DNA from: Virgibacillus doumboii
GTDB taxonomy: Bacteria; Bacillota; Bacilli; Bacillales; Amphibacillaceae
Reading direction: 5' to 3'
Assembly: GCF_902806455.1 (NCBI RefSeq)
Contig: NZ_CADCWQ010000001.1
Coordinates: 1 to 64,000 of the forward strand
DNA length: 64,000 nucleotides
Shown: one piece after another, positions 17,697-43,145 of the stretch
Layout: every line of letters begins with the position of its first letter
Numbering within the stretch: the stretch's first letter is position 1
Notes under the pieces: model-generated
Told to the model about the DNA's origin: nothing
Seen by the model: the letters and a program-made list of their open reading frames with translations, nothing else
Database searches by the model: none
Translations under genes and position numbers: made by a program

Positions 17697-17870
17697 ATGG
17701 ACCATGGAGCGGCACCCTGGTCCACACGATATTTAATGATTTACATATTTTTTACGTTCTTAATATCTGAAAACTGGTCCAAGGCCCCTGTCCCCTTGGA
17801 CCAAGGCCACCCTTGGACAGGACCACAGACCAGGACCACAGACCAGGACCACACCCTTGGACCAGAAAAT
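17697..17870. repeat. Dispersed repeat family C, copy 3, with 13-bp tandem repeat
   Basis: It starts GGACCATGGAGCGGCACCCT, then GGTCCACACGATATTTAATG and TTTACATATTTTTTACGTTC, then CTGGTCCAAGGCCCCTGTCC and CCTTGGACC. From about 17819 to 17853 the unit AGGACCACAGACC is repeated nearly three times. No coding potential was seen. It lies 30-200 bp upstream of the polyol operon promoter. Confidence 0.75.
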
Positions 17871-17883
17871 TAATCTCCTATTT

Positions 17884-17906
17884 TTGTCACACCCTCATTG
17901 TGACAA
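17884..17906. promoter_or_regulatory. MtlR-type operator half-sites
   Basis: TTGTCACA at 17884-17891 and TGTGACAA at 17899-17906 form a perfect inverted repeat with a 7-base centre. The half-sites match the MtlR operator consensus as I recall it (TTGNCACA...TGTGNCAA); the usual spacer is shorter. The centre lies about 64 bp before the predicted transcription start, suitable for an activator. An MtlR-like regulator is encoded in the same operon. Confidence 0.6.
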
Positions 17907-17946
17907 TCTTATGACAACTTACCCATTTACTTTTAAAATTCTCTGA

Positions 17947-17974
17947 TATAATTAAAATTGTGAAAGCGATAACA
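17947..17974 (+). promoter_or_regulatory. Polyol operon promoter -10 with overlapping downstream cre site
   Basis: TATAAT at 17947-17952 has no strong -35, as expected for an activated promoter. TGAAAGCGATAACA at 17961-17974 fits the cre consensus TGWAANCGNTNWCA at every position and covers the transcription start, where CcpA binding would block initiation. This predicts carbon catabolite repression of the operon. Confidence 0.75.
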
Positions 17975-17991
17975 TACAAGGGGGAGTTTTA

Positions 17992-19374
17992 ATGAGAAAT
18001 AAATTCAGCTTTTTAGTTGTTATGCTATTAGCAATCATCATTGTCATTGCTGGTTGCAGTTCTTCTTCCGGAAATGACGGAGATGGTGACAGCGGCAGTG
18101 ATAACGAAGGAACTACTCTAACAGTGGCAACAGTTAACAACCCGGATATGAAGATCATGCAAGAGTTAACAAAAAAACACTTTGAAAAGGAAACTGGAAT
18201 TGAAGTGGAATTTGTCGTCTTGCCGGAGACGGACCTCCGTAAAAAGGTAACAGAAGACGTTGCATTGGGAGCAGGTGCTTTTGATATTGTAACGATAAGC
18301 ACATATGATACACCAATTTGGGCAGAGAATGGCTGGATTGAGCCAATAAGTCCATATTTGAATGAATTAACCGATGAAGAAAAAAAGGCTTACGACTTGG
18401 AAGATATTTTCCCATCTATGAGATCTGCGCTTACGTATGATGACAGCTTATACGCGTTACCTTTCTATGGAGAAAGTACCATGCTTTATTACAATAAAGA
18501 AATTTTTAAGGAAGTAGGATTGGAAATGCCGAAACGTCCAACGTGGGAAGAGGTTGGACAAATGGCCAGAACAATAAAAGAGGAAACCGGCAATCCGGGA
18601 ATTGTACTGCGTGGACTGCCGGGGTGGGGAGAAATGATGGCACCACTCACAACGGTTATTAATGCATTTGGCGGCCGCTATTATGACGAAAATTGGAATG
18701 CGCAGCTTAATAGTGAAGGGACTGTAAATGCTGTTGAATTCTATGTTGATTTATTAAAAGATGCCGGACAGCCAGGAGCAACAAGTACAGGATATACGGA
18801 GGCGCTAACGATAATGTCTACCGGAAAAGCAGCAATGTGGTATGACGCGACAGTTGCTGCAGGAACACTGAACAATCCTGAAGATTCATCGGTAGTAGGT
18901 AAAATTGGTTATGCGTTTGCTCCAACACAAGTGAAAGAGCAAAATACCGGTGGACTATATGCCTGGTCACTTGCGATTGAGAAAGCTAGTAAAAATAAGG
19001 ATGCTGCATTTGAATTTATTAAATGGTCTACCAGCAAAGAATATGTTGAACTTGTCGGAGAGGAAAAAGGTTGGGTGGTTGCCCCTTCTGGAACCAGAAT
19101 TTCCACGTACGAAAATCCAAAATATCAAGAAGCAGCGCCTTTTTCTGATATGGTTTTAGAAAGTATTCAGAGCGTGGATTATGATAATCCGACAGTAGAT
19201 CCAGTACCATATGTTGGAGCTCAGTATGTGGCAATCCCTGAGTTTCAGTCACTCGGAACCGAAGTCAGTCAGCAAATAGCCGCGGCAATTGCGGGAGATA
19301 AGACAGTTGAAGAGGCTATGGAGGAAGCTCAGAAACTTGCGGAACAGGCTGCCAAAGAGGGTGGATACAAATAA
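17992..19374 (+). CDS. Sugar/polyol ABC transporter substrate-binding lipoprotein
   Basis: A 460-residue binding protein with a lipoprotein signal (lipid Cys at 22 in IAGC), a Ser/Asp/Gly-rich linker, and a family 1 extracellular solute-binding domain (ITGIEVEF, GAFDIVTISTYD, LPFYGESTMLYYNK, TGKAAMWYD). The sequence resembles the sorbitol/mannitol-binding SmoE type. AGGGGGAG precedes the ATG. It is the first gene of the polyol operon; two permease genes follow, but no ATPase is encoded, so a shared MsmX-like ATPase elsewhere would energise it (inference). Confidence 0.85.
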   Translation: MRNKFSFLVVMLLAIIIVIAGCSSSSGNDGDGDSGSDNEGTTLTVATVNNPDMKIMQELTKKHFEKETGIEVEFVVLPETDLRKKVTEDVALGAGAFDIVTISTYDTPIWAENGWIEPISPYLNELTDEEKKAYDLEDIFPSMRSALTYDDSLYALPFYGESTMLYYNKEIFKEVGLEMPKRPTWEEVGQMARTIKEETGNPGIVLRGLPGWGEMMAPLTTVINAFGGRYYDENWNAQLNSEGTVNAVEFYVDLLKDAGQPGATSTGYTEALTIMSTGKAAMWYDATVAAGTLNNPEDSSVVGKIGYAFAPTQVKEQNTGGLYAWSLAIEKASKNKDAAFEFIKWSTSKEYVELVGEEKGWVVAPSGTRISTYENPKYQEAAPFSDMVLESIQSVDYDNPTVDPVPYVGAQYVAIPEFQSLGTEVSQQIAAAIAGDKTVEEAMEEAQKLAEQAAKEGGYK

Positions 19375-19435
19375 AATTTGTCTCCTTGAATAGTCATATG
19401 ATGTTGATTGTTTAATAGGATCCGGTTTTTTAGAT

Positions 19436-19480
19436 GAATAGAAGAAGGATGGGAAGTTTTGACCTTCTTCTATTCTTTCA
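19436..19480 (+). terminator. Intercistronic hairpin after the binding-protein gene
   Basis: GAATAGAAGAAGG (19436-19448) pairs perfectly with CCTTCTTCTATTC (19463-19475), followed by TTTC. Its position between the binding-protein and permease genes suggests partial termination or mRNA stabilisation giving more binding protein than permease, as in maltose-type operons. Confidence 0.7.
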
Positions 19481-19507
19481 TCATTGTTTTTAAAAGGGAG
19501 TAAGCGT

Positions 19508-20410
19508 ATGAAAGCAATTGAACAAAAGAGAAAGTCTGTGAACAAGCCACCAACAAAAAGATTAATTTTACCGAGTGCTATTTTCCTGATCATTATGACG
19601 CAAGTTCCGTTTCTTATTACAATCTATTATAGTTTTCAGGATTGGAACTTATTGCGCCCTGATCAGGGGATTTCATTTTCGGGGTTGTCAAATTTCAAGA
19701 ACCTCCTGACATCTGCTTCCTTTTATAAAGTATTAGGAAATACTTTTGTATTAACATTTGCTGCCTTGATTATTTGTTTTATATTAGGGTTTGCCCTTGC
19801 ATTATTAATGAATCGTAACTTTTTCGGGAAGGGCATTGTTCGGACGATGTTTATAACGCCATTTTTTGTCATGCCGACCGTATCAGCAATTGTATGGAAA
19901 ACGTTGGTTTATAATCCCAGCTACGGGTTAAGTGCTTATTTTGCAAATGTTTTTGGAACAGCTCCAATTGAGTGGTTATCAGAACATCCGCTGTTATCAA
20001 TTATCCTGGTTGTATCCTGGATGTGGACTCCGTTTTTCATGCTTATACTATTGGCGGGACTGCAATCTCGTCCAGGCGATTTAATTGAAGCAGCTCAACT
20101 GGATGGAGCTAATAAAATCCGTCAGTTTATCCATGTGACAATACCACATTTGGTTAACTATATTGAAGTGGTCATTATATTGGGACTGATGTTTATATTA
20201 CAAGTGTTCGGTGAGATATATGTAACTACTTCGGGTGGGCCAGGGTTTGCTTCTACAAATCTGTCATTCTATGTCTACCGTACCGCATTTCAAAGCTGGG
20301 AAATAGGTGAAGCATCAGCGATTGGTGTATTGACGGTTATATTAACCATTATTATGATGTTGATTATGTTTAAAGTCTTACGTCGCATGTTCAGGGAGGA
20401 ACAGTCATGA
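19508..20410 (+). CDS. Sugar/polyol ABC transporter permease 1
   Basis: A 300-residue MalF-type permease with about six membrane segments and the EAA loop EAAQLDGANKIRQFIHVTIP, which contacts the ATPase. The start is the ATG at 19508 behind AAAGGGAG; an in-frame TTG at 19484 would place the ribosome site inside the gene. It overlaps the next permease gene by 4 bp (ATGA), implying translational coupling. It pairs with the SmoE-like receptor upstream. Confidence 0.9.
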   Translation: MKAIEQKRKSVNKPPTKRLILPSAIFLIIMTQVPFLITIYYSFQDWNLLRPDQGISFSGLSNFKNLLTSASFYKVLGNTFVLTFAALIICFILGFALALLMNRNFFGKGIVRTMFITPFFVMPTVSAIVWKTLVYNPSYGLSAYFANVFGTAPIEWLSEHPLLSIILVVSWMWTPFFMLILLAGLQSRPGDLIEAAQLDGANKIRQFIHVTIPHLVNYIEVVIILGLMFILQVFGEIYVTTSGGPGFASTNLSFYVYRTAFQSWEIGEASAIGVLTVILTIIMMLIMFKVLRRMFREEQS

Positions 20411-21222
20411 AAAAAATAGTATCTGGTGGACTGACACTGTTTACCTATTTACTGGCATTCGTGTTTTTCTTCCCAATTCTATGGATTTTCATAACAGGAT
20501 TTAAAACAGAAAGTGAGGCAATTAACATCCCGCCTTCCATATTTTTTGAACCAACGCTTGAGAACTTTCAAATGGTATGGGGAATGGGAATAGGCGAGTT
20601 TTTTATAAATTCAGCAATTGTTACTGTTTCGTCCACATTATTGGCGCTGCTGCTTGGCGTACCGGCAGCTTATGCCCTTGCGTTATTTAAAATTAAGCGA
20701 AAGGACGATATTTTATTCTGGATTATTTCAACCCGCTTTTTGCCAATAGCGGGGATCATTATCCCATTGTATTTGATATTTAAAAACATTAATTTATTGG
20801 ATTCATTACTTGCCTTAACCTTACTTTATGCTGCAATGAATGTACCATTAATTATCTGGATGATGCGGTCCTTCTTCAACGATGTCTCCATTGAGATTAT
20901 TGAAGCCACACGAGTTGATGGTGCAACAGGCTTACAGGCATTCTTTAAAGTTGTTTTGCCGCTTGTCAGACCCGGACTTGTTTCAACTGCACTGTTATCC
21001 ATGGTATTTGCATGGAACGAATTTTTCTTTGCTGTAAGTTTAAGTTACACAAATGCCGCAACATTACCGGTTAATATGGCATCTTATATGACACAGGAAG
21101 GATTGTTCTGGGCGCAAATGTCCGCCGCTGCATCGATTTCAATTTTACCGGTCATTATTTTGGGATGGTTTACACAGCGGCAATTAGTAAGGGGATTAAC
21201 GATGGGGGCTGTAAAAGGATAA
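20407..21222 (+). CDS. Sugar/polyol ABC transporter permease 2
   Basis: A 271-residue MalG-type permease with six membrane segments. The EAA loop reads IEATRVDGATGLQAFFKVVL and the C terminus ends QLVRGLTMGAVKG, the standard end of this family. It overlaps permease 1 by 4 bp. Together with the lipoprotein it forms the membrane part of a polyol importer of the sorbitol/mannitol class. Confidence 0.9.
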   Translation: MKKIVSGGLTLFTYLLAFVFFFPILWIFITGFKTESEAINIPPSIFFEPTLENFQMVWGMGIGEFFINSAIVTVSSTLLALLLGVPAAYALALFKIKRKDDILFWIISTRFLPIAGIIIPLYLIFKNINLLDSLLALTLLYAAMNVPLIIWMMRSFFNDVSIEIIEATRVDGATGLQAFFKVVLPLVRPGLVSTALLSMVFAWNEFFFAVSLSYTNAATLPVNMASYMTQEGLFWAQMSAAASISILPVIILGWFTQRQLVRGLTMGAVKG

Positions 21223-21267
21223 TACCCGATTATATAGATAGATATAAAGGAAAGGAATGATTAAAAA

Positions 21268-22275
21268 ATGAAGGCTTTAGTCATTGAAAAGCCATATGAT
21301 GCCACTGTAAAAGATGTACCTTATCCAAAGCCGGCATCAGATGAAATCACCATTAAGGTTGAAAATATTGGTATTTGCGGGACAGATATTCATATATTTC
21401 AAGGTGAGTTTCTTTCACCTTATCCAATTATTCCTGGTCATGAATTTTCAGGTACTGTTTATGAAATTGGTGAAAACGTACAAGGTTTTGAGGCGGGAGA
21501 TCGGGGTACTGCCGACCCGTCCCTGTTTTGTGGACATTGTGAATTTTGTTTAACGAATCGTGGCAACCAATGCGAAAATTGGGGAGCCATTGGAAACACG
21601 GTTGATGGGAGCATGGCAGAGTATGTAAAAGTGCCCAGTAAAAATGTCGTTAAAATACCTGATTCGATGTCGTTCGCTGAAGCTGCTTTTATTGAGCCAA
21701 TGGCATGTGTTGTGCACGGAATGAATCGACTGCAGCTCCAGGTAGGCGATCGGGTAATACTATTTGGAGCTGGAGCGATGGGCCAACAACTCGTTCAATC
21801 CGTGAAAATGGCTGGGGCTTCAGAAATTGTTGTTGTAGATATCTCCCAAAACAAGCTTGATATGGCATTTGAGTGGGGAGCAACGAAAGGCGTATTAAGT
21901 AAAAATATCGGAACTGAATTAAGTGAGGAAAAGTATCCGAATGGTTTTGATGTCGTTATTGACGCAACTGGTATACCTGATGTTATTGAACAGGCTTTTG
22001 ACTATATGGGAAAAACGGCAACCTATTTACAATTTGGCGTTACACCTAAAAATGCGAAGGTAGAAATTGATCCATTCAAACTATATAACCAGGATTGGAC
22101 AATTCTTGGTACCATGGCAATTAATCATACGTTTCTGCCGGCCTTCCAGTGGGTGAAAAATGAACGTATTGATTTAAAGCCTATTATTTCAAAAGAAATT
22201 TCACTTGAACAAACTATTGATTTTTTGAAAGGGCCAAAAGATTCCAACGATTTAAAGGTTCAAATAAAAATATAA
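21268..22275 (+). CDS. Zinc-dependent polyol dehydrogenase (MDR family)
   Basis: A 335-residue medium-chain dehydrogenase. Catalytic zinc ligands are in ICGTDIHIF and PGHEFSG; the structural zinc site is CGHCEFCLTNRGNQC; the Rossmann motif is FGAGAMG. It resembles D-arabitol, sorbitol and related polyol dehydrogenases that oxidise the polyol to a ketose with NAD(P). With xylulokinase as the next gene, D-arabitol or xylitol oxidation to D-xylulose is the simplest reading; this is inference. The ATG follows AAAGGAAAGG. Confidence 0.82.
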   Translation: MKALVIEKPYDATVKDVPYPKPASDEITIKVENIGICGTDIHIFQGEFLSPYPIIPGHEFSGTVYEIGENVQGFEAGDRGTADPSLFCGHCEFCLTNRGNQCENWGAIGNTVDGSMAEYVKVPSKNVVKIPDSMSFAEAAFIEPMACVVHGMNRLQLQVGDRVILFGAGAMGQQLVQSVKMAGASEIVVVDISQNKLDMAFEWGATKGVLSKNIGTELSEEKYPNGFDVVIDATGIPDVIEQAFDYMGKTATYLQFGVTPKNAKVEIDPFKLYNQDWTILGTMAINHTFLPAFQWVKNERIDLKPIISKEISLEQTIDFLKGPKDSNDLKVQIKI

Positions 22276-22296
22276 GACGAATGTGTATCAAAGGAC

Positions 22297-22333
22297 CCGG
22301 GAAAGTCACATGTCGAATGTGGCTTTTCCTTTT
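22297..22333 (+). terminator. Hairpin between the polyol dehydrogenase and xylulokinase genes
   Basis: GGAAAGTCACAT pairs with ATGTGGCTTTTCC around a GTCGA loop, with TTTTATT after it. It looks like a weak terminator or processing site inside the operon. Confidence 0.5.
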
Positions 22334-22353
22334 ATTGCTAAGGAGGCTGTATA

Positions 22354-23856
22354 ATGGATAATGAATTATTGATGGGAATTGATATCGGAACTCAGGGTGT
22401 GAAAATTCTTGTGATCATTCAAAATGGAGACATTATTGCAAAAGGAAACCATACTTATGATTTCGAAGTTCCAAAGGCAGGTTGGGCAGAACAGGATCCA
22501 CTGCAATGGTGGGATGGTGTAACAAAATCATTGCAACAGATTTGGGACCAAGGCATTAAAGCGGAACAAATACAGGGGATAGGTATATCAGGGCAAATGC
22601 ACAGCCTTGTTTTGCTGGATAAAAATATGGAAGTATTGGGTAACTCTATTTTGTGGAACGATGTACGAACCAACGAAGAATGTGAAGAGATTGAACAAAT
22701 TGTCGGCAAAAAGAAAGCCTCAGTAATTACTCGAAATGCAATACTTCCGGGGTTTACTGCACCTAAGCTGTTATGGGTCAGGAAGCATGAACCAGAAAGG
22801 TATTCCAAAATCAGACATGTGATGCTGCCGAAAGATTATATTGTATTCAAGCTAAGTGGAATTTTTTCATGTGATGTTTCAGATGCAAGTGGCACAGCTT
22901 TATTTGATACAGAAAAACGCAGCTGGTCGAGGGAAATAATTGAACGGCTTGAAATACCATTTGAATGGCTGCCGGTAGTCCATGAAAGTCAGACTGTTGT
23001 AGGGGGAGTATCGCAACAAGCTGCACAGTCAACAGGTTTAACAAAAGGTACCAGGATTGTAGCCGGGGCTGGCGACAACGCAGCAGCGGCACTCGGAAAT
23101 GGAATAGTTGAAGAAGGTTCCGGAATGATTAGTGTCGGGACGTCAGGAACCGTTTTTGCACCATTGAAAGAACTTTCTCCGATTCACGATGGGGGACAAT
23201 TGTCTACCTTACATTTATTTTGTCACTGTGTACCTGGAACCTGGCATGCTATGGGTGTAACATTATCAGCAGGCATGTCATTAAATTGGTTCAAGCATAC
23301 ATTTTCGGAAAAAGACACGTATGATCAGTTTCTTACGGGAATTGAAGCTATTCCAGCCGGTTCTGAAGGATTATATTATCTTCCATACCTTAATGGGGAG
23401 CGGACACCGCATAATGATCCACATGCAAGGGGCGTTTTTTTTGGAATTCACTATAATCATTCCCGCAAGCATTTTACAAGGGCCGTTCTCGAAGGTGTCT
23501 CATATAGCCTGAGGGATTGCTATGAGTTGATAAAAATGAATAATGTGTCCATTAATAAGCTGTACGTTACGGGAGGTGCGAGCAAAAGTTCCGCATGGAG
23601 ACAAATTTTAGCTGATATTTTAGGGCGTAAGCTAACATTTTTTGATGATAGGGAAGGACCTGCTTTTGGTGCTTCATTATTAGCCGGACTTGGTATAGGT
23701 GTTTGGGAAAGCCCAACAATGTTACCGGCGCTTTTCGAAAATAGTGAGGAAACGAAGGCACTGGGGCAAAATGTGAAAACGTATGAAGATAATTATCAAA
23801 TATATAAAAGCTTATATACGCAATTAAAGCCTTTATTTAATATGAAACAGAAATAG
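22354..23856 (+). CDS. xylB: Xylulokinase
   Basis: A 500-residue FGGY-family kinase with the N-terminal DIGTQGVKILV motif, GISGQMHSLVLLD, the central DASGTALFD and the C-terminal GGASKSSAWRQILADILG. These are the standard xylulokinase features. It phosphorylates D-xylulose to xylulose 5-phosphate, linking the polyol dehydrogenase product to the pentose phosphate pathway. AAGGAGGCTG precedes the ATG. Full length. Confidence 0.88.
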   Translation: MDNELLMGIDIGTQGVKILVIIQNGDIIAKGNHTYDFEVPKAGWAEQDPLQWWDGVTKSLQQIWDQGIKAEQIQGIGISGQMHSLVLLDKNMEVLGNSILWNDVRTNEECEEIEQIVGKKKASVITRNAILPGFTAPKLLWVRKHEPERYSKIRHVMLPKDYIVFKLSGIFSCDVSDASGTALFDTEKRSWSREIIERLEIPFEWLPVVHESQTVVGGVSQQAAQSTGLTKGTRIVAGAGDNAAAALGNGIVEEGSGMISVGTSGTVFAPLKELSPIHDGGQLSTLHLFCHCVPGTWHAMGVTLSAGMSLNWFKHTFSEKDTYDQFLTGIEAIPAGSEGLYYLPYLNGERTPHNDPHARGVFFGIHYNHSRKHFTRAVLEGVSYSLRDCYELIKMNNVSINKLYVTGGASKSSAWRQILADILGRKLTFFDDREGPAFGASLLAGLGIGVWESPTMLPALFENSEETKALGQNVKTYEDNYQIYKSLYTQLKPLFNMKQK

Positions 23857-23926
23857 GATAGTATAGAATTATAAAGCCAATTCAGTGGATAAACATTCAA
23901 TTTTTTTACTGGAAGGATTGAAAGGC

Positions 23927-26071
23927 ATGAAACAGTCTATCACTATAAACTCACGTCAAGAAGAATTGCTGCGGTCATTTATTAATGAAAATAAACCAAT
24001 TTCCTATAAATATCTTTCCGATTACTTTAAATTAAGCGTACGAACGATTCAAAGGGAAATAAGATCGCTCGCTCCCATATTAAAAGAATATGACATTAAA
24101 ATCACACGAAAAATTGGTTCCGGATTGGAATTACAGGGTGCAAAAGAAAACATAGAAAAGTTAAATGCACAAATGAAGCAAGCAGAAGTTATGACTGCAT
24201 ATTCCCCGGAGGAGCGCCAGGAAGGAATTACGTATGAACTTTTATTATCAAATGAGCCTTTGAAACAAGGGTATTTCAGCACAAAATTCGATGTGTCCGT
24301 CGCAACCATTGCTTATGATTTAGATAAGGTCAGTTCATGGTTTCAAGAAAGTGGGGTAAAAGTCGAGCGTTCCCCGGGTGTCGGCATTTATATTATTGGC
24401 ACAGAACAACAACGAAGGACTTTATTGTCGCAATTACTTCATAAGGATATTACATTTGAAGACTGGCTGGAGCTTTTTCATGAACCAGCAGCGGAAGAAT
24501 CGCTGTTCGGGAAATTGGGTTCCGTTATTCGGAACAGATTGCTTAAATTTGTTCAGAAAGATAAAATTATGGATGTTGACCATGTTTTACAAGAGGTATT
24601 GAGAGAACATCCAGATGTGGTGTTAACCGACAGAAATTATGTGAATTTAATGATTCACATTTTGCTGGCCATGGAAAGAATTCAGAGTGGCAAGGTAATC
24701 GAATATAATAACCTGAATTATTGGGTTCCTTTTGAAGCGGATACACTTTCTCTTGCAAAAAAAATAGTAGCCCGGCTGGAGAAGGTTTCATCACTGACTT
24801 TTCCGGAAATCGAGGTGGAATATATATCACTTCACCTTGCCGGGGCCGAGATATCCAAAAGAATAGATTTAGAGAGTGATAGTAAAGAGTTTGTGTGGGT
24901 TGAACTGACACAGAGCTTTATTCGTTCCATTGAATATTATCTTGATCGGTCTTTTGAAGGAGATCAGTTACTTTATGAGGGGTTATTTTCCCACTTTGTA
25001 CCCGTTTTTAAAAGATTGAAATATGGCTTACAAATACATAATCCGATGCTGGATCAAATAAAGGAAAAATATCCCGATGTCTTTACTGCTTGTGAGAAGG
25101 CCTGTGTCAATTTAACAGAAAAGACAGGTTATCCGATTCCTGAAGACGAGGTTGGATACTTAGCCATGCATATTGGTGCATCATTATTACGAGTCAAAGA
25201 GGATGTAAAGGAAACATATAAAGCAATAGTAGTTTGTGCAAGCGGCCTTGGAACATCGATGTATTTGGCCACAAAAATTCGTACAGATATTCCTAATCTG
25301 CAGGTGGAAGCAGTTGTTTCGTTAAATGAACTGTCCAATCGGATAACAGAAGAATCCGACATTGATATTATTATTTCAACAGTAAACCCGCCCGTTATAA
25401 GTGGCACAAAGGTAGTTATAGTCAGCCCCTTTCTAAATAAAGAAGATTTAGAGACAATCAGTAATACATTGGCTGGAGTGGGCCATGCGAAGAAAAATAT
25501 TTCTGCTTCAGAGGAAAAGGACAGCAATGCACTTGATTCCTCATCGCTTTTCTCGCTGGGGGTTTACGGTGAAGGAATGGTGCAAATTATAAGGAATCTT
25601 AATATATATAACGGTGTGAAGATTGGTTCTGACCGCATTGTGAGTCTGTTGAATTACATGGAAAATGTTGCAGAAATCACAAACCAAAAGATACTAATCA
25701 ATGATTTAACAGAACGTGAAAAATCAGGTGGCTTTGTATTAGATAATCTTGCCATGCTACATACCAAATCAAAAGGGGTGAACGCACCTGTTGTCGCACT
25801 CTTTCGTACAGAATCACCTGTGCCTTGGCATGGTGATGATGGACAAGAGCAAAAGGTTAAGGTAATTATTTTGCTGGTGGTGCCTATCGATGCTCCGGCA
25901 GAACATATGGAAATGATAAGTGAAATTCCTGCATCATTCATCGATGAATCGTTTCTTGAGGGATTAATTACTGGAACGGAAAATGAAGTGCATGGCTTAT
26001 TTGAAAGCGTTTTAACGGAATCCTTTAAGCGGCGAATAACTTTTATAGCGAAAGGGTTACAAGACGAATGA
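23927..26071 (+). CDS. MtlR-like PRD-containing transcriptional activator
   Basis: About 714 residues with the domain order of MtlR. There is an N-terminal HTH (YLSDYFKLSVRTIQREI), two PRD modules with conserved His near 243, 302, 355 and 414, and a GatB-like IIB domain with Cys near 437 (VVCASGLGTS). A C-terminal IIA-like domain carries the candidate phospho-His near 612 (AMLHTKSKG). PTS phosphorylation of these sites sets activity. I chose the ATG at 23927 (GGAAGG 10 bases upstream) over an in-frame GTG at 23885. It overlaps the MtlA-like gene by 4 bp and probably activates the operon through the half-sites at 17884. Confidence 0.85.
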   Translation: MKQSITINSRQEELLRSFINENKPISYKYLSDYFKLSVRTIQREIRSLAPILKEYDIKITRKIGSGLELQGAKENIEKLNAQMKQAEVMTAYSPEERQEGITYELLLSNEPLKQGYFSTKFDVSVATIAYDLDKVSSWFQESGVKVERSPGVGIYIIGTEQQRRTLLSQLLHKDITFEDWLELFHEPAAEESLFGKLGSVIRNRLLKFVQKDKIMDVDHVLQEVLREHPDVVLTDRNYVNLMIHILLAMERIQSGKVIEYNNLNYWVPFEADTLSLAKKIVARLEKVSSLTFPEIEVEYISLHLAGAEISKRIDLESDSKEFVWVELTQSFIRSIEYYLDRSFEGDQLLYEGLFSHFVPVFKRLKYGLQIHNPMLDQIKEKYPDVFTACEKACVNLTEKTGYPIPEDEVGYLAMHIGASLLRVKEDVKETYKAIVVCASGLGTSMYLATKIRTDIPNLQVEAVVSLNELSNRITEESDIDIIISTVNPPVISGTKVVIVSPFLNKEDLETISNTLAGVGHAKKNISASEEKDSNALDSSSLFSLGVYGEGMVQIIRNLNIYNGVKIGSDRIVSLLNYMENVAEITNQKILINDLTEREKSGGFVLDNLAMLHTKSKGVNAPVVALFRTESPVPWHGDDGQEQKVKVIILLVVPIDAPAEHMEMISEIPASFIDESFLEGLITGTENEVHGLFESVLTESFKRRITFIAKGLQDE

Positions 26072-27480
26072 AAAAGTTTGCCCGGCTTTTAAGTGCGATG
26101 GTATACCAAAATATTATAATCATCATTGCTGTTGGTGTTATTCGTGTTATTTTTGGTGATTACGGCTGGTGGTACAATGAAACAATTACTGAAATTGTTA
26201 ATCCGGTATATCACACCTTGTTGCCGGTTTTAATCGCGTACACCGGCGGTAAACTGGTTGGCGGACAACGAGGTGCAACCGTTGCTGCTATTGCTGTGTT
26301 TGGACTAACACTTTCAAGTACAGTGCCGGCCATACTGGGAGCAATGATTATTGGGCCCTTATTGGGATGGGTGATGAAAAAAGTTGATCAGCTGATGATT
26401 AAACGATTACCTGGTGTTGGGTATGAACTGCTGATTGGAAATGTATTGGCTTCATTTATCGCAATTATATCCACACTGTTCTGTTTTTTATATGTAGGTG
26501 AATTGTTTTCTGCAGGCGTCGAATTTTCTTTAAACTTCTTGGAATCGATTGTTAATTCGAGCCTGCTCCCACTTGCAGCAATTATTGTTGAACCAGCGAA
26601 AGTCCTCTTCTTTAATAACATTATTAATTTTGGAATGCTGGCACCTTTGGGTATCCATCAGGTAAATGAATTGGGCAAATCCATATTTTTCTTAATCGAA
26701 TCAAATCCTGGTCCGGGACTGGGAATTCTCATTGCTTATTGGTTAAAAACGAAAGGCGAACAGAGGAAAGGGGCCAAAATTGCAACCTCCATTCATTTTT
26801 TTGGCGGTATTCACGAAGTATATTTCCCATATGTGTTAATGAAACCCCGGTTAATCATCCCGCTTATTCTGGGGGGAATGGCAGGGATATTCAGTTTTCA
26901 ATCATTTAATGTTGGTCTTGTAGCTATTTCTTCACCAGGAAGTATTTTCCCCGTAGTTGGACTTGCACCAAAAGAGGATATGATATTTGTTCTTTTAGGA
27001 GTACTTTTATCCGCGCTTGTATCGTTTATTGGAAGTTACTTTTTATTAGAGAATGTCTCTGATTCTCCATCTGTTAAGGATACAAAAGACACTATAAATG
27101 ATTTTTATCAAGTGACAGAAAGTGGAAGCCTTCCAACGCGTGGTGAATCGAGGTTTGAAAAAGCGGAGCAAATGAATGAACAGGCAACCATGGAATTAAA
27201 AGGAACAACAATTGATTCGATTTATTTTGTTTGTGAAGCGGGCATTGGTTCAAGTGCAATGGGCGCAGCAATGCTTCGGAAGAGATTACAGGAGGCAAAT
27301 TTAGATATTTCAGTTGTGAATTCATCAATTGATGATATCTCACCAAGTGCAGACTTAATTATTTGTCATGAACGCCTATTGCCAACCGTTAAACGTATTG
27401 CCCCGGATACAAACTATTATCCTCTTCAAACGTTTACGGATATGAAAGATTACAAGGAGTTGGTTGAGAGGCTTGTATAG
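26068..27480 (+). CDS. MtlA-like PTS IICB protein
   Basis: A 470-residue protein with an N-terminal IIC membrane domain (about residues 1-340, containing FFGGIHEVYFPYVLMKP and SNPGPGLGILIAYW). A linker and a IIB domain follow, with the phospho-Cys near 388 (FVCEAGIGSSAMGAAMLRKR). This is the MtlA layout, but the first membrane segment is diverged, and the family motif NNAINHG reads NNIINFG, replacing a His. No IIA gene or mannitol-1-phosphate dehydrogenase gene is near. Coupled to the MtlR-like gene by a 4-bp overlap, it may be a transporter or mainly a membrane sensor for the regulator. Confidence 0.82.
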   Translation: MKKFARLLSAMVYQNIIIIIAVGVIRVIFGDYGWWYNETITEIVNPVYHTLLPVLIAYTGGKLVGGQRGATVAAIAVFGLTLSSTVPAILGAMIIGPLLGWVMKKVDQLMIKRLPGVGYELLIGNVLASFIAIISTLFCFLYVGELFSAGVEFSLNFLESIVNSSLLPLAAIIVEPAKVLFFNNIINFGMLAPLGIHQVNELGKSIFFLIESNPGPGLGILIAYWLKTKGEQRKGAKIATSIHFFGGIHEVYFPYVLMKPRLIIPLILGGMAGIFSFQSFNVGLVAISSPGSIFPVVGLAPKEDMIFVLLGVLLSALVSFIGSYFLLENVSDSPSVKDTKDTINDFYQVTESGSLPTRGESRFEKAEQMNEQATMELKGTTIDSIYFVCEAGIGSSAMGAAMLRKRLQEANLDISVVNSSIDDISPSADLIICHERLLPTVKRIAPDTNYYPLQTFTDMKDYKELVERLV

Positions 27481-27513
27481 TGGACCGCGGGGACAGGGGT
27501 CCTGGTCCACTTG
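27480..27513. repeat. Dispersed repeat family C, copy 4 (hairpin)
   Basis: GTGGACCGCGGGGACAGGGG then TCCTGGTCCAC, with complementary GTGGACC/GGTCCAC ends. It begins at the last base of the MtlA-like stop codon. It shares GGACAGG and GGTCCAC with the copies at 16721 and 17697. Confidence 0.65.
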
Positions 27514-41798: not shown

Positions 41799-42497
41799 AA
41801 AACTCCCTGCAATGTATTTTTACCATATTAGAGACATCGAAATTTCATATCTATACCTTTTCTATGTTCGTAAACTGAGTTTGTACATTTTATGTATGTA
41901 CAAACTTGGATTTTAGTAAGATTATGCATGAATCAGTGGTCTTGACTTTTGTACCAAACTGGATTATTTTATATCTAAACCCATACTTAGTTAGAAAAAG
42001 TGCAATAAGATGGCAACGATTAATTGAAAATAATAGACTCCTTTACTAAACCCCTCTTGAGAAACTATAAAGACTTACTATTACTCCAACGTACGATATA
42101 AAATTCAATGTATTAATCAAAAAAAAGAGTGTTAGAGAAATAATGCTGTCCCTCTTAGCAATAACTACAGATATATTCCTATGAATCAGGTATATGTAAT
42201 GATGGATGATACCCTGGAACATATCGCTCGTGTAGTCGCGTGATTTTTCAGACATTAACCAAGTGGTCTGGTCGCCGAAAAAATCTGATCCTGTTTCCCC
42301 GGACTTGTGGTTGCAGGGGCGAATGGATGCAGTTAAAGGAATACTATCAACACCCTGGTAAAAAACAATTCAAATATAATCTGGTATCACAAAATAATTT
42401 AGACTTAAAAATTGTTGAAGAAACAGCAGAAATTATAAGAAAATTATTCTTGATTGCTGGGTATAAATAGATTTGATAAGAAATGAGGTCTATCATA
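41799..42497. other. Intergenic region with hairpin and a possible gene remnant
   Basis: About 700 bp with no intact gene accepted. TTTGTACAT (41881-41889) and ATGTACAAA (41898-41906) form an inverted repeat with an 8-base centre. At about 42246-42363 a plus-strand frame without a start reads FSDINQVVWSPKKSDPVSPD, then LWLQGRMDAVKGILSTPW and a stop. It looks like genuine protein sequence, perhaps a remnant, but I cannot assign it. Confidence 0.35.
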
Positions 42498-43145
42498 ATG
42501 GACGAACTTATAAAAGAATTGATTATTGAACTTCAGGGGTTTAGAAAAGAAACCAACCAACGATTTGACCGAATGGAGGAATGGCAAGGGAAAGCGGACG
42601 AGCGATTTGACCAAATGGAGGAATGGCAAGGGAAAGCGGACGAGCGATTTGACCGAATGGAGGAATGGCAAGGGAAAGCGGACGAGCGATTTGACCGAAT
42701 GAAGGAATGGCAAGGGAAAGCGGACGAACGATTTGACCGGATGGAAGAGTGGCAGGGAGAAGCGAACGAACGATTTGACCGGATGGAAGAGTGGCAGGGA
42801 GAAGCGAACGAACGATTTGACCGGATGGAAGAGTGGCAGGGAGAAGCGAACGAACGGTTTGATCGAGTGGATGAGTGGCAGGAAGGAGCCAGCGCCCGAT
42901 TTGATCGAGTGGATGAGTGGCAAGATGGAGCCACCAAACGATTTGACCGATTAGATGAAGGGCAACAAGAACTTAAGGAAATTATTAAACATAACGCAAC
43001 TTTAATGTCGGAAAATTTTACGGATATCCGTAAGGATTTACGTATCAAAACGCAAGATACCCATGCAGATGTTAATCTTCTTTTTAAAGAAATGGAAGGG
43101 ATAAAACGAAAAACTAATAAAATCGAGCAGAAGATTAATAAATAA
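42498..43145 (+). CDS. 14-residue-repeat coiled-coil protein
   Basis: A 215-residue protein. After a short helical start (MDELIKELIIELQGFRKETN) come nine consecutive 14-residue units of the form RFDRMEEWQGKADE, then a tenth diverged unit. A C-terminal helical region follows (ITLM-free, rich in Lys and Asn; IKRKTNKIEQKINK at the end). Fourteen residues are two heptads, so a long rod-like coiled coil is expected. It resembles phage-tail or toxin-linked coiled-coil proteins with RFDRxE repeats, but no function can be given. ATG 42498 follows TGAGG by 9 bases. A repeat-A hairpin lies just after it. Confidence 0.7.
   Translation: MDELIKELIIELQGFRKETNQRFDRMEEWQGKADERFDQMEEWQGKADERFDRMEEWQGKADERFDRMKEWQGKADERFDRMEEWQGEANERFDRMEEWQGEANERFDRMEEWQGEANERFDRVDEWQEGASARFDRVDEWQDGATKRFDRLDEGQQELKEIIKHNATLMSENFTDIRKDLRIKTQDTHADVNLLFKEMEGIKRKTNKIEQKINK
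42561..42980 (+). repeat. 42-bp tandem repeat inside the coiled-coil gene
   Basis: Nine full 42-bp units and a diverged tenth begin with CGATTTGACCGAATGGAGGA or close variants. Units 1-4 are nearly identical, units 5-7 form a second near-identical group, and units 8-9 a third. The grouping suggests recent local duplication and a copy number that varies between strains. Confidence 0.9.

Follow-up and report, generated by a model that had tools for sequence, protein, structure and literature searches.

What does a permease of the phosphotransferase system (PTS) do in an operon whose sugar alcohol appears to enter the cell by another route? This question is raised by an operon of seven plus-strand genes at positions 17992-27480 of a 64,000-nucleotide stretch of the Virgibacillus doumboii genome (positions 1 to 64,000 of contig NZ_CADCWQ010000001.1; the whole stretch is termed the window). 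The operon encodes an importer of the ATP-binding cassette (ABC) type, a polyol dehydrogenase and a xylulokinase, followed by a regulator resembling MtlR and a membrane protein resembling the mannitol permease MtlA, with IIC and IIB domains (IICB). The IICB protein is read here, with a probability of roughly 0.6, as a dedicated and probably non-transporting sensor for the activator of this ABC polyol operon. This reading draws on the gene content of operon and genome, the recurrent pairing of regulator and IICB, the phosphorylation sites retained in the regulator, an operator common to related promoters, and two residues, His and Asp, that are replaced in the IICB. The matter is of general interest because PTS control usually has one protein doing both signalling and transport, so that the two are hard to separate.

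An MtlR-type regulator and an altered MtlA-like partner

The first-pass annotation of the window had described ABC import followed by oxidation with a polyol dehydrogenase and a xylulokinase, and family models bear this out (SBP_bac_1, BPD_transp_1 in both permeases, ADH_zinc_N and XylB). The implied complete ABC system is not encoded in the operon, which contains no ATPase gene; a shared ATPase elsewhere in the genome was not searched for. The MtlR-like regulator and MtlA-like IICB that it had described as translationally coupled are recovered by domain scans, and the end of the regulator gene and the start of the IICB gene share four nucleotides (26068-26071).

In a Pfam scan the regulator has the full MtlR-type layout of a helix-turn-helix domain (HTH), two PTS regulation domains (PRD1 and PRD2), a IIB-like domain and a IIA-like domain. 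A passage of PMC8560693 gives the phosphorylated residues of MtlR as H230, H289, H342, H399, C419 and H599, and all six are present in the window regulator (H258, H317, H370, H429, C451 and H626). Wherever covered, these sites are retained in every one of the 58 related regulators with 37% identity or more, two of which are partial proteins; of the 99 regulators listed, the most distant 29 show more variation at them. The start codon, judged from the ribosome-binding site, is more likely the ATG at 23927 than the GTG at 23885. This is the one full MtlR-like protein of the genome. Unlike the mannitol PTS targets of MtlR-type activators, its operon contains neither mtlF nor mtlD.

The IICB falls below both curated cut-offs for MtlA (NF011663, 445.5 against 589; TIGR00851, 343.1 against 468.4). 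Compared to the MtlA proteins of four mannitol operons, Phe188 replaces the conserved His of the NNxxNHG motif, which we take to be E. coli His-195 in number and role, and Glu390 replaces the Asp that follows the IIB cysteine. The IIB phosphorylation cysteine itself (C389) and the glutamate of the IIC GIxE motif (E250) are retained. The structure is predicted with confidence (mean pLDDT, the predicted local distance difference test, 84.5), and Foldseek matches it best to an E. coli MtlA model at 41% identity, with IIC and IIB matches as well. Sequence searches for a solved IIC on which to map Phe188 reached IIB structures only. In an hhalign comparison with a ChbC-like protein that this genome also encodes, Phe188 aligns with the GIHG His and Glu250 with the NINE Glu (3qnq positions 250 and 334, counted by hand), which at 4% probability is a hint only.

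The two replacements go together among the relatives of the IICB, of which the best 120 of 7993 matches were analyzed. Cys-Glu occurs in 49 of these, with Phe or Tyr in place of the His in 48 of the 49; the other 71 have Cys-Asp, with His in 61, Tyr in 8 and Asn in 2. The GIHE glutamate and the IIB cysteine are present in 120 of 120, and the GIHE His has become Gln in nine. In the tree the Cys-Glu proteins fall into a single clade (support 100/99) of 57 rows, a count that includes duplicates of our own loci; the program flagged long branches elsewhere in that tree. From this pattern we infer that the IICB would sense a ligand and would have lost transport or kept it only very weakly.

The same residues must be weighed for an unlikely alternative, namely that the IICB works as a PTS permease of changed specificity. 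Phe or Tyr would then select another polyol, IIA would come from another system, and the product would be oxidized by the dehydrogenase or some other enzyme; the cell would have two uptake routes, and regulation would follow transport as in B. subtilis. The retention of the IIB cysteine and the GIHE glutamate, found in all 120 listed relatives, speaks for this, as do the occurrence of Tyr in the separate Cys-Asp group and the cross-phosphorylation of IIA-less permeases, which is known according to a passage of PMC6148471. It is opposed by the retention of the replaced His in most Cys-Asp relatives, and by the ABC importer that the same operon already encodes. Moreover, no polyol-phosphate dehydrogenase was identified here, and a phosphorylated pentitol would not need the xylulokinase.

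The gene content of the genome (3.9 Mb in 4 contigs, completeness rating 99.99%) also bears on a dedicated sensor. It contains no second MtlA-like protein, three PTS_EIIC matches and two HPr-type matches. Two EIIA_2 genes occur besides the regulator's own, both in other sugar operons, which we read as a PfkB-kinase operon with a fructose-type IIBC and an amino-sugar-type operon; there is no stand-alone mannitol-type IIA among the EIIA_2 matches. The first-pass annotation had pointed to a PTS permease in an ABC pathway without a gene for mannitol-1-phosphate dehydrogenase (MtlD), and this extends to the whole genome, in which no Mannitol_dh_C match exceeds the cut-off. Mannitol imported as mannitol-1-phosphate would therefore have no standard way on.

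Recurrence of the regulator-IICB pair

The regulator gene stands directly 5' of a gene for IICB, or for IICB with a fused IIA (IICBA), in 18 genomes, with a gap of -14 to +6 nucleotides (-4 in the window). Few candidates were scored per genome (up to 7 in the 159 genomes of the family, 4 in the 397 of the order and 3 in the 398 of the class), and so second copies may be missed. The group is not widespread: 8 of the 159 family genomes have a regulator with 39% identity or more, and 6 of the 397 order genomes an IICB with 56% identity or more. ABC permease genes lie upstream of the pair in 15 of the 18, so that the neighbourhood survey suggested in the first-pass annotation does find such pairs beside ABC polyol operons. 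Searches of an open-licence library turned up no account of a pair of this kind, which does not prove that none has been published.

Ten of the ABC operons are of the window type (G000, G056, G050, G113, G027, G024, G441, G210, G647 and G628) and five are of a second type (G035, G036, G203, G590 and G650). Operons of the second type (L084:4178-17764 and L047:760-11465) contain hexuloisomerase-like and TIM-barrel genes, recognized by eye, and two dehydrogenases, which suggests another polyol route. The stretch fetched for G572 starts inside the operon. The pair of G487 sits on a contig of 8 kb with no permease or catabolic gene; 5' of the pair is a lipoprotein that resembles betaine-type binding proteins by eye (L086:5221-6261). 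In G696 the pair stands next to glucitol PTS genes and a dehydrogenase, which we read as an operon with its own transporter. By eye, this regulator-IICBA pair lies between glucitol-PTS-like genes and an HPr-like gene, near ethanolamine-utilization-like genes (L104:8537-17790). A second solute-binding-protein gene is found directly 5' of the regulator in G441 (L083:7672-9252), G210 (L085:11993-13558) and G628 (L108:11067-12620), and these proteins might have a role in sensing.

Phe or Tyr together with Cys-Glu is found in 14 of the 18 paired IICBs, the window included. That the IICB is a functionless, decaying remnant of a mannitol permease, kept through its overlap with the regulator gene, would agree with the two replaced active-site neighbours and the two missed MtlA cut-offs. 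This is nevertheless very improbable, as intact IICB frames of 468-485 amino acids, with the IIB cysteine and the GIHE glutamate retained, occur in 14 genomes, and the Cys-Glu proteins group tightly in one clade with the same replacement pattern.

Trees were built from 23 rows, comprising the 18 pair loci and 5 of 8 mannitol loci (G070, G073, G009, G117, G198, G667, G836 and G368). These eight are high-scoring matches and not a random sample, and their surroundings were read along with those of the 18 pair genomes. The 18 paired regulators form one clade (100/100), separate from the five mannitol-operon regulators, and the regulator and IICB trees are concordant in their main forks; the placement of canG198, on a long branch, is unsure. 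The Phe/Tyr IICBs nest beside His-keeping ones, which suggests a route from an intact permease to the altered form.

Several observations weigh against a dedicated sensor or a distinct family of pairs. Among the best 120 relatives, P0021 is a Cys-Glu protein that keeps His, and the proteins with Tyr (8, context unknown) or Asn (2) combine a replaced His with an intact Cys-Asp. Four pairs retain both His and Cys-Asp, one as an IICB (G628) and three with a fused IIA as an IICBA (G572, G647 and G696). Gene order is not distinctive either. In five of the eight mannitol loci mtlA precedes the regulator, and in two (G667 and G368) no regulator is in view; G836, a mannitol operon with mtlF and mtlD, is regulator-first like the pairs, with a 73-nucleotide gap before mtlA. 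This counterexample, whose regulator one scan missed because of its E-value limit, disproves the idea that the regulator-first order is exclusive to the cassette, and gene order alone therefore cannot define it. Furthermore, MtlD-type genes exceed the cut-off in 10 of the 18 pair genomes, so a general statement that cassette genomes have no mannitol metabolism is wrong for these ten. No MtlD-type gene exceeds the cut-off in the other eight (G000, G113, G441, G203, G487, G650, G572 and G647; the G113 assembly is fragmented), and among the 14 Phe/Tyr genomes six are without such a gene. The strongest point comes from G203, where a Tyr-type pair is followed by a IIA that looks mannitol-type by eye, as well as by a PfkB kinase and an aldolase, an arrangement that fits a working permease too.

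Across the survey it may be, although we hold this somewhat less probable than its opposite, that a lineage of mannitol permeases gave up transport and phosphotransfer to become a receptor. With an MtlR-type activator it would form a portable two-gene cassette, found in two types of ABC operon and beside a glucitol-type PTS.

Operator, operon layout and substrate

The 3.9-Mb genome contains the motif TTGTCAY-N9-RTGACAA at a single place, in front of this operon, and the reversed control nowhere. Loose matching was rejected as evidence: with up to three mismatches there are 6 sites in the window against 3.11 expected, and 10 of 100 shuffles reach 6. As loose matches are near chance, only the exact site stands out. 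An extra half-site, TGACAA, lies at 17912-17917.

Promoters were compared for 11 of the 18 members of the group, of which 10 were usable because that of G647 is cut to 26 bases. The operator repeat is present with at most one mismatch in six of the ten (G000, G056, G050, G027, G024 and G441), always 106-113 bases 5' of the first gene. It has two mismatches in G035 and three in G113, whereas G036 and G590 lack it at this spacing. When the G056 promoter was shuffled 2000 times by mononucleotide, no shuffle reached one mismatch or fewer and 2 reached two mismatches.

The half-sites had been said to match the MtlR operator. This holds for the TTGTCA/TGNCAA half-sites and fails for the spacing, as the site here, written as TTGTCA-N11-TGACAA, has a spacer of 11, which is wider than in published MtlR boxes. 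Passages of PMC3217849 and PMC10992428 give spacers of 9 in B. licheniformis and, in B. subtilis, of 7 in the printed form or 8 when counted from the primers, and report that spacer length is not crucial for binding. A consensus catabolite-responsive element (cre) had likewise been placed at the operon start, and here the looser consensus TGWAANCGNTNWCA is matched and the stricter WTGNAARCGNWWWCA is not. An exact match to the looser form is found in no other promoter among those compared.

These sites also bear on whether the pair chiefly controls genes elsewhere and adjoins this operon by chance. The G487 pair, on a contig without ABC permease genes, would fit such an arrangement. It is the least probable of the readings considered, since the genome's one operator-like site fronts this very operon and 15 of the 18 pairs stand 3' of ABC permease genes.

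Table 1. Genes and putative control elements of the polyol operon, in window positions.
Feature	Position	Strand	Remarks
Probable operator	17884..17906		TTGTCACACCCTCATTGTGACAA, TTGTCAC-N9-GTGACAA; single place in genome
Possible -10 box TATAAT	17947..17952	+	weak -35; read from the sequence
cre-like site	17961..17974	+	TGAAAGCGATAACA; sole window match to looser consensus
Solute-binding lipoprotein, carbohydrate ABC importer	17992..19374	+	SBP_bac_1 match; best solved relative 4rya
ABC permease A	19508..20410	+	BPD_transp_1; start chosen by us, longest frame from 19484
ABC permease B	20407..21222	+	BPD_transp_1
Zinc-dependent polyol dehydrogenase	21268..22275	+	ADH_N/ADH_zinc_N
Terminator-like hairpin between dehydrogenase and xylulokinase genes	22299..22329	+	similar hairpins in relatives
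Xylulokinase	22354..23856	+	XylB TIGR01312, 572.4 bits (cut-off 380.25)
MtlR-like activator	23885..26071	+	Pfam: Mga/HTH_11-PRD-PRD-IIB-EIIA_2
MtlA-like IICB, proposed sensor	26068..27480	+	PTS_EIIC and PTS_IIB; F188, E390, C389, E250
Probable operon end: inverted repeat, then T residues	27540..27586	+	found by eye; absent from computed listing

Within the operon (Table 1), a further terminator-like hairpin lies 3' of the binding-protein gene (19436-19475). The hairpin after the dehydrogenase gene is of a type, AAAGYCAC...GTGGCTTT, that is found in G000, G056, G113, G027, G024, G203, G441 and G647 and is diverged in G050. With such hairpins, expression could fall along a gradient towards the kinase, regulator and sensor. 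Short repeats rich in TGGTCCA/CCTTGGACC are present on both flanks of the operon (17698-17865 and 27481-27511). Elsewhere in the window, an open reading frame at 42483-43145 consists of repeated units like MEEWQGKADERFDR and probably encodes a coiled-coil repeat protein.

The substrate is approached through three of the proteins. Against solved structures, the binding protein scores 422.1 bits with 4rya, which is named for sorbitol, and 98.5 with the next best. The allitol-binding protein of PMC10318746 is 4WT7 and not 4rya, and was set aside. A relative of the dehydrogenase at 67% (P0318) carries the source name D-altritol 5-dehydrogenase, and an enzyme of this name is described for A. tumefaciens in a passage of PMC12193009. 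A xylulokinase implies D-xylulose, and therefore D-arabitol or xylitol. In the operons of G113, G027, G024, G441, G210, G035, G036 and G650 no xylulokinase was seen; a fructokinase-like gene takes its place in G441 and G650, and other relatives show no kinase. Taken together, these similarities point to a hexitol or a pentitol, and D-arabitol is plausible.

A proposed permease-derived sensor and its known counterparts

In the proposed scheme, the sugar alcohol would enter unmodified through the ABC permeases, presumably energized by a shared ATPase encoded elsewhere. The zinc dehydrogenase would oxidize the polyol to a ketose, which the xylulokinase would then phosphorylate. The MtlR-type activator would turn the operon on at the operator, activation being assumed here rather than repression. 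The IICB, derived from a mannitol permease, would serve as a dedicated membrane sensor and not as an uptake route: binding of polyol to its IIC part would alter the state of IIB, and IIB, probably by direct contact, would recruit, free or dephosphorylate the activator. The model for this step comes from B. subtilis, where the IIB of MtlA acts on MtlR. Catabolite repression would be added through the cre-like site and through HPr, which would phosphorylate PRD2.

Bouraoui and colleagues reportedly found in 2013 that the mannitol permease tethers MtlR to the membrane and that this is required for its activity, as a review passage also states. In B. subtilis, the mtl promoter becomes constitutive when mtlAF is deleted, and mannitol retards mtlD mutants, an effect ascribed to a probable build-up of mannitol-1-phosphate (both from passages of PMC3217849). 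A cell without MtlD that retained the sensing part of MtlA would benefit from the loss of its transport.

A family in which a permease seemingly controls a pathway that does not need its uptake, and in which two active-site neighbours are replaced together, would make it possible to test directly whether a bound ligand can signal through IIB to a PRD regulator when no phosphate flows to the sugar. If the sensor reading is true, it shows a transport machine recycled as a receptor, and the annotation "mannitol PTS EIICB" in an operon of this kind may not denote a transporter of mannitol.

Among known systems, the uptake of unmodified polyol followed by oxidation is shared with importers of the SmoEFGK/MtlEFGK type, and the window binding protein is related to a sorbitol-named one; SmoEFGK of S. 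meliloti is reported to be a polyol ABC importer. The window operon differs from these in its missing ATPase gene and its PTS-type regulation. The MtlR of Pseudomonas is of the AraC type and unrelated to the window regulator. The atlABCD operon of B. methanolicus is also a polyol operon of the Bacillus group with a gene for a BglG-type regulator, but there, according to a passage of PMC6685057, the PTS is the uptake route and is followed by an arabitol-phosphate dehydrogenase.

The MtlR/MtlA system of Bacillus shares with the window the regulator architecture, the six phosphosites, the domain layout and fold of the IICB, and the TTGTCA/TGNCAA half-sites. The window departs from it in lacking mtlF and mtlD, in placing the regulator first and overlapping, in its wider operator spacing, in the two IICB replacements (His by Phe/Tyr, Asp by Glu), and in uptake by ABC permeases.

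The closest parallel to the proposed role is SacX of B. subtilis, which a passage of PMC6148471 describes as an IIA-less PTS permease paralogue that is mainly a sucrose sensor for the PRD regulator SacY. SacY acts as an antiterminator, and SacX belongs to the sucrose-family IIBC proteins, whereas the window combines an MtlR-type DNA-binding activator with a mannitol-family IICB in an ABC operon; unlike SacX, this IICB is the genome's only MtlA-like protein, with no transporting paralogue beside it. In both systems, an IIA-less permease paralogue adjoins the gene of its PRD regulator, and in the window it would likewise act as the sensor.

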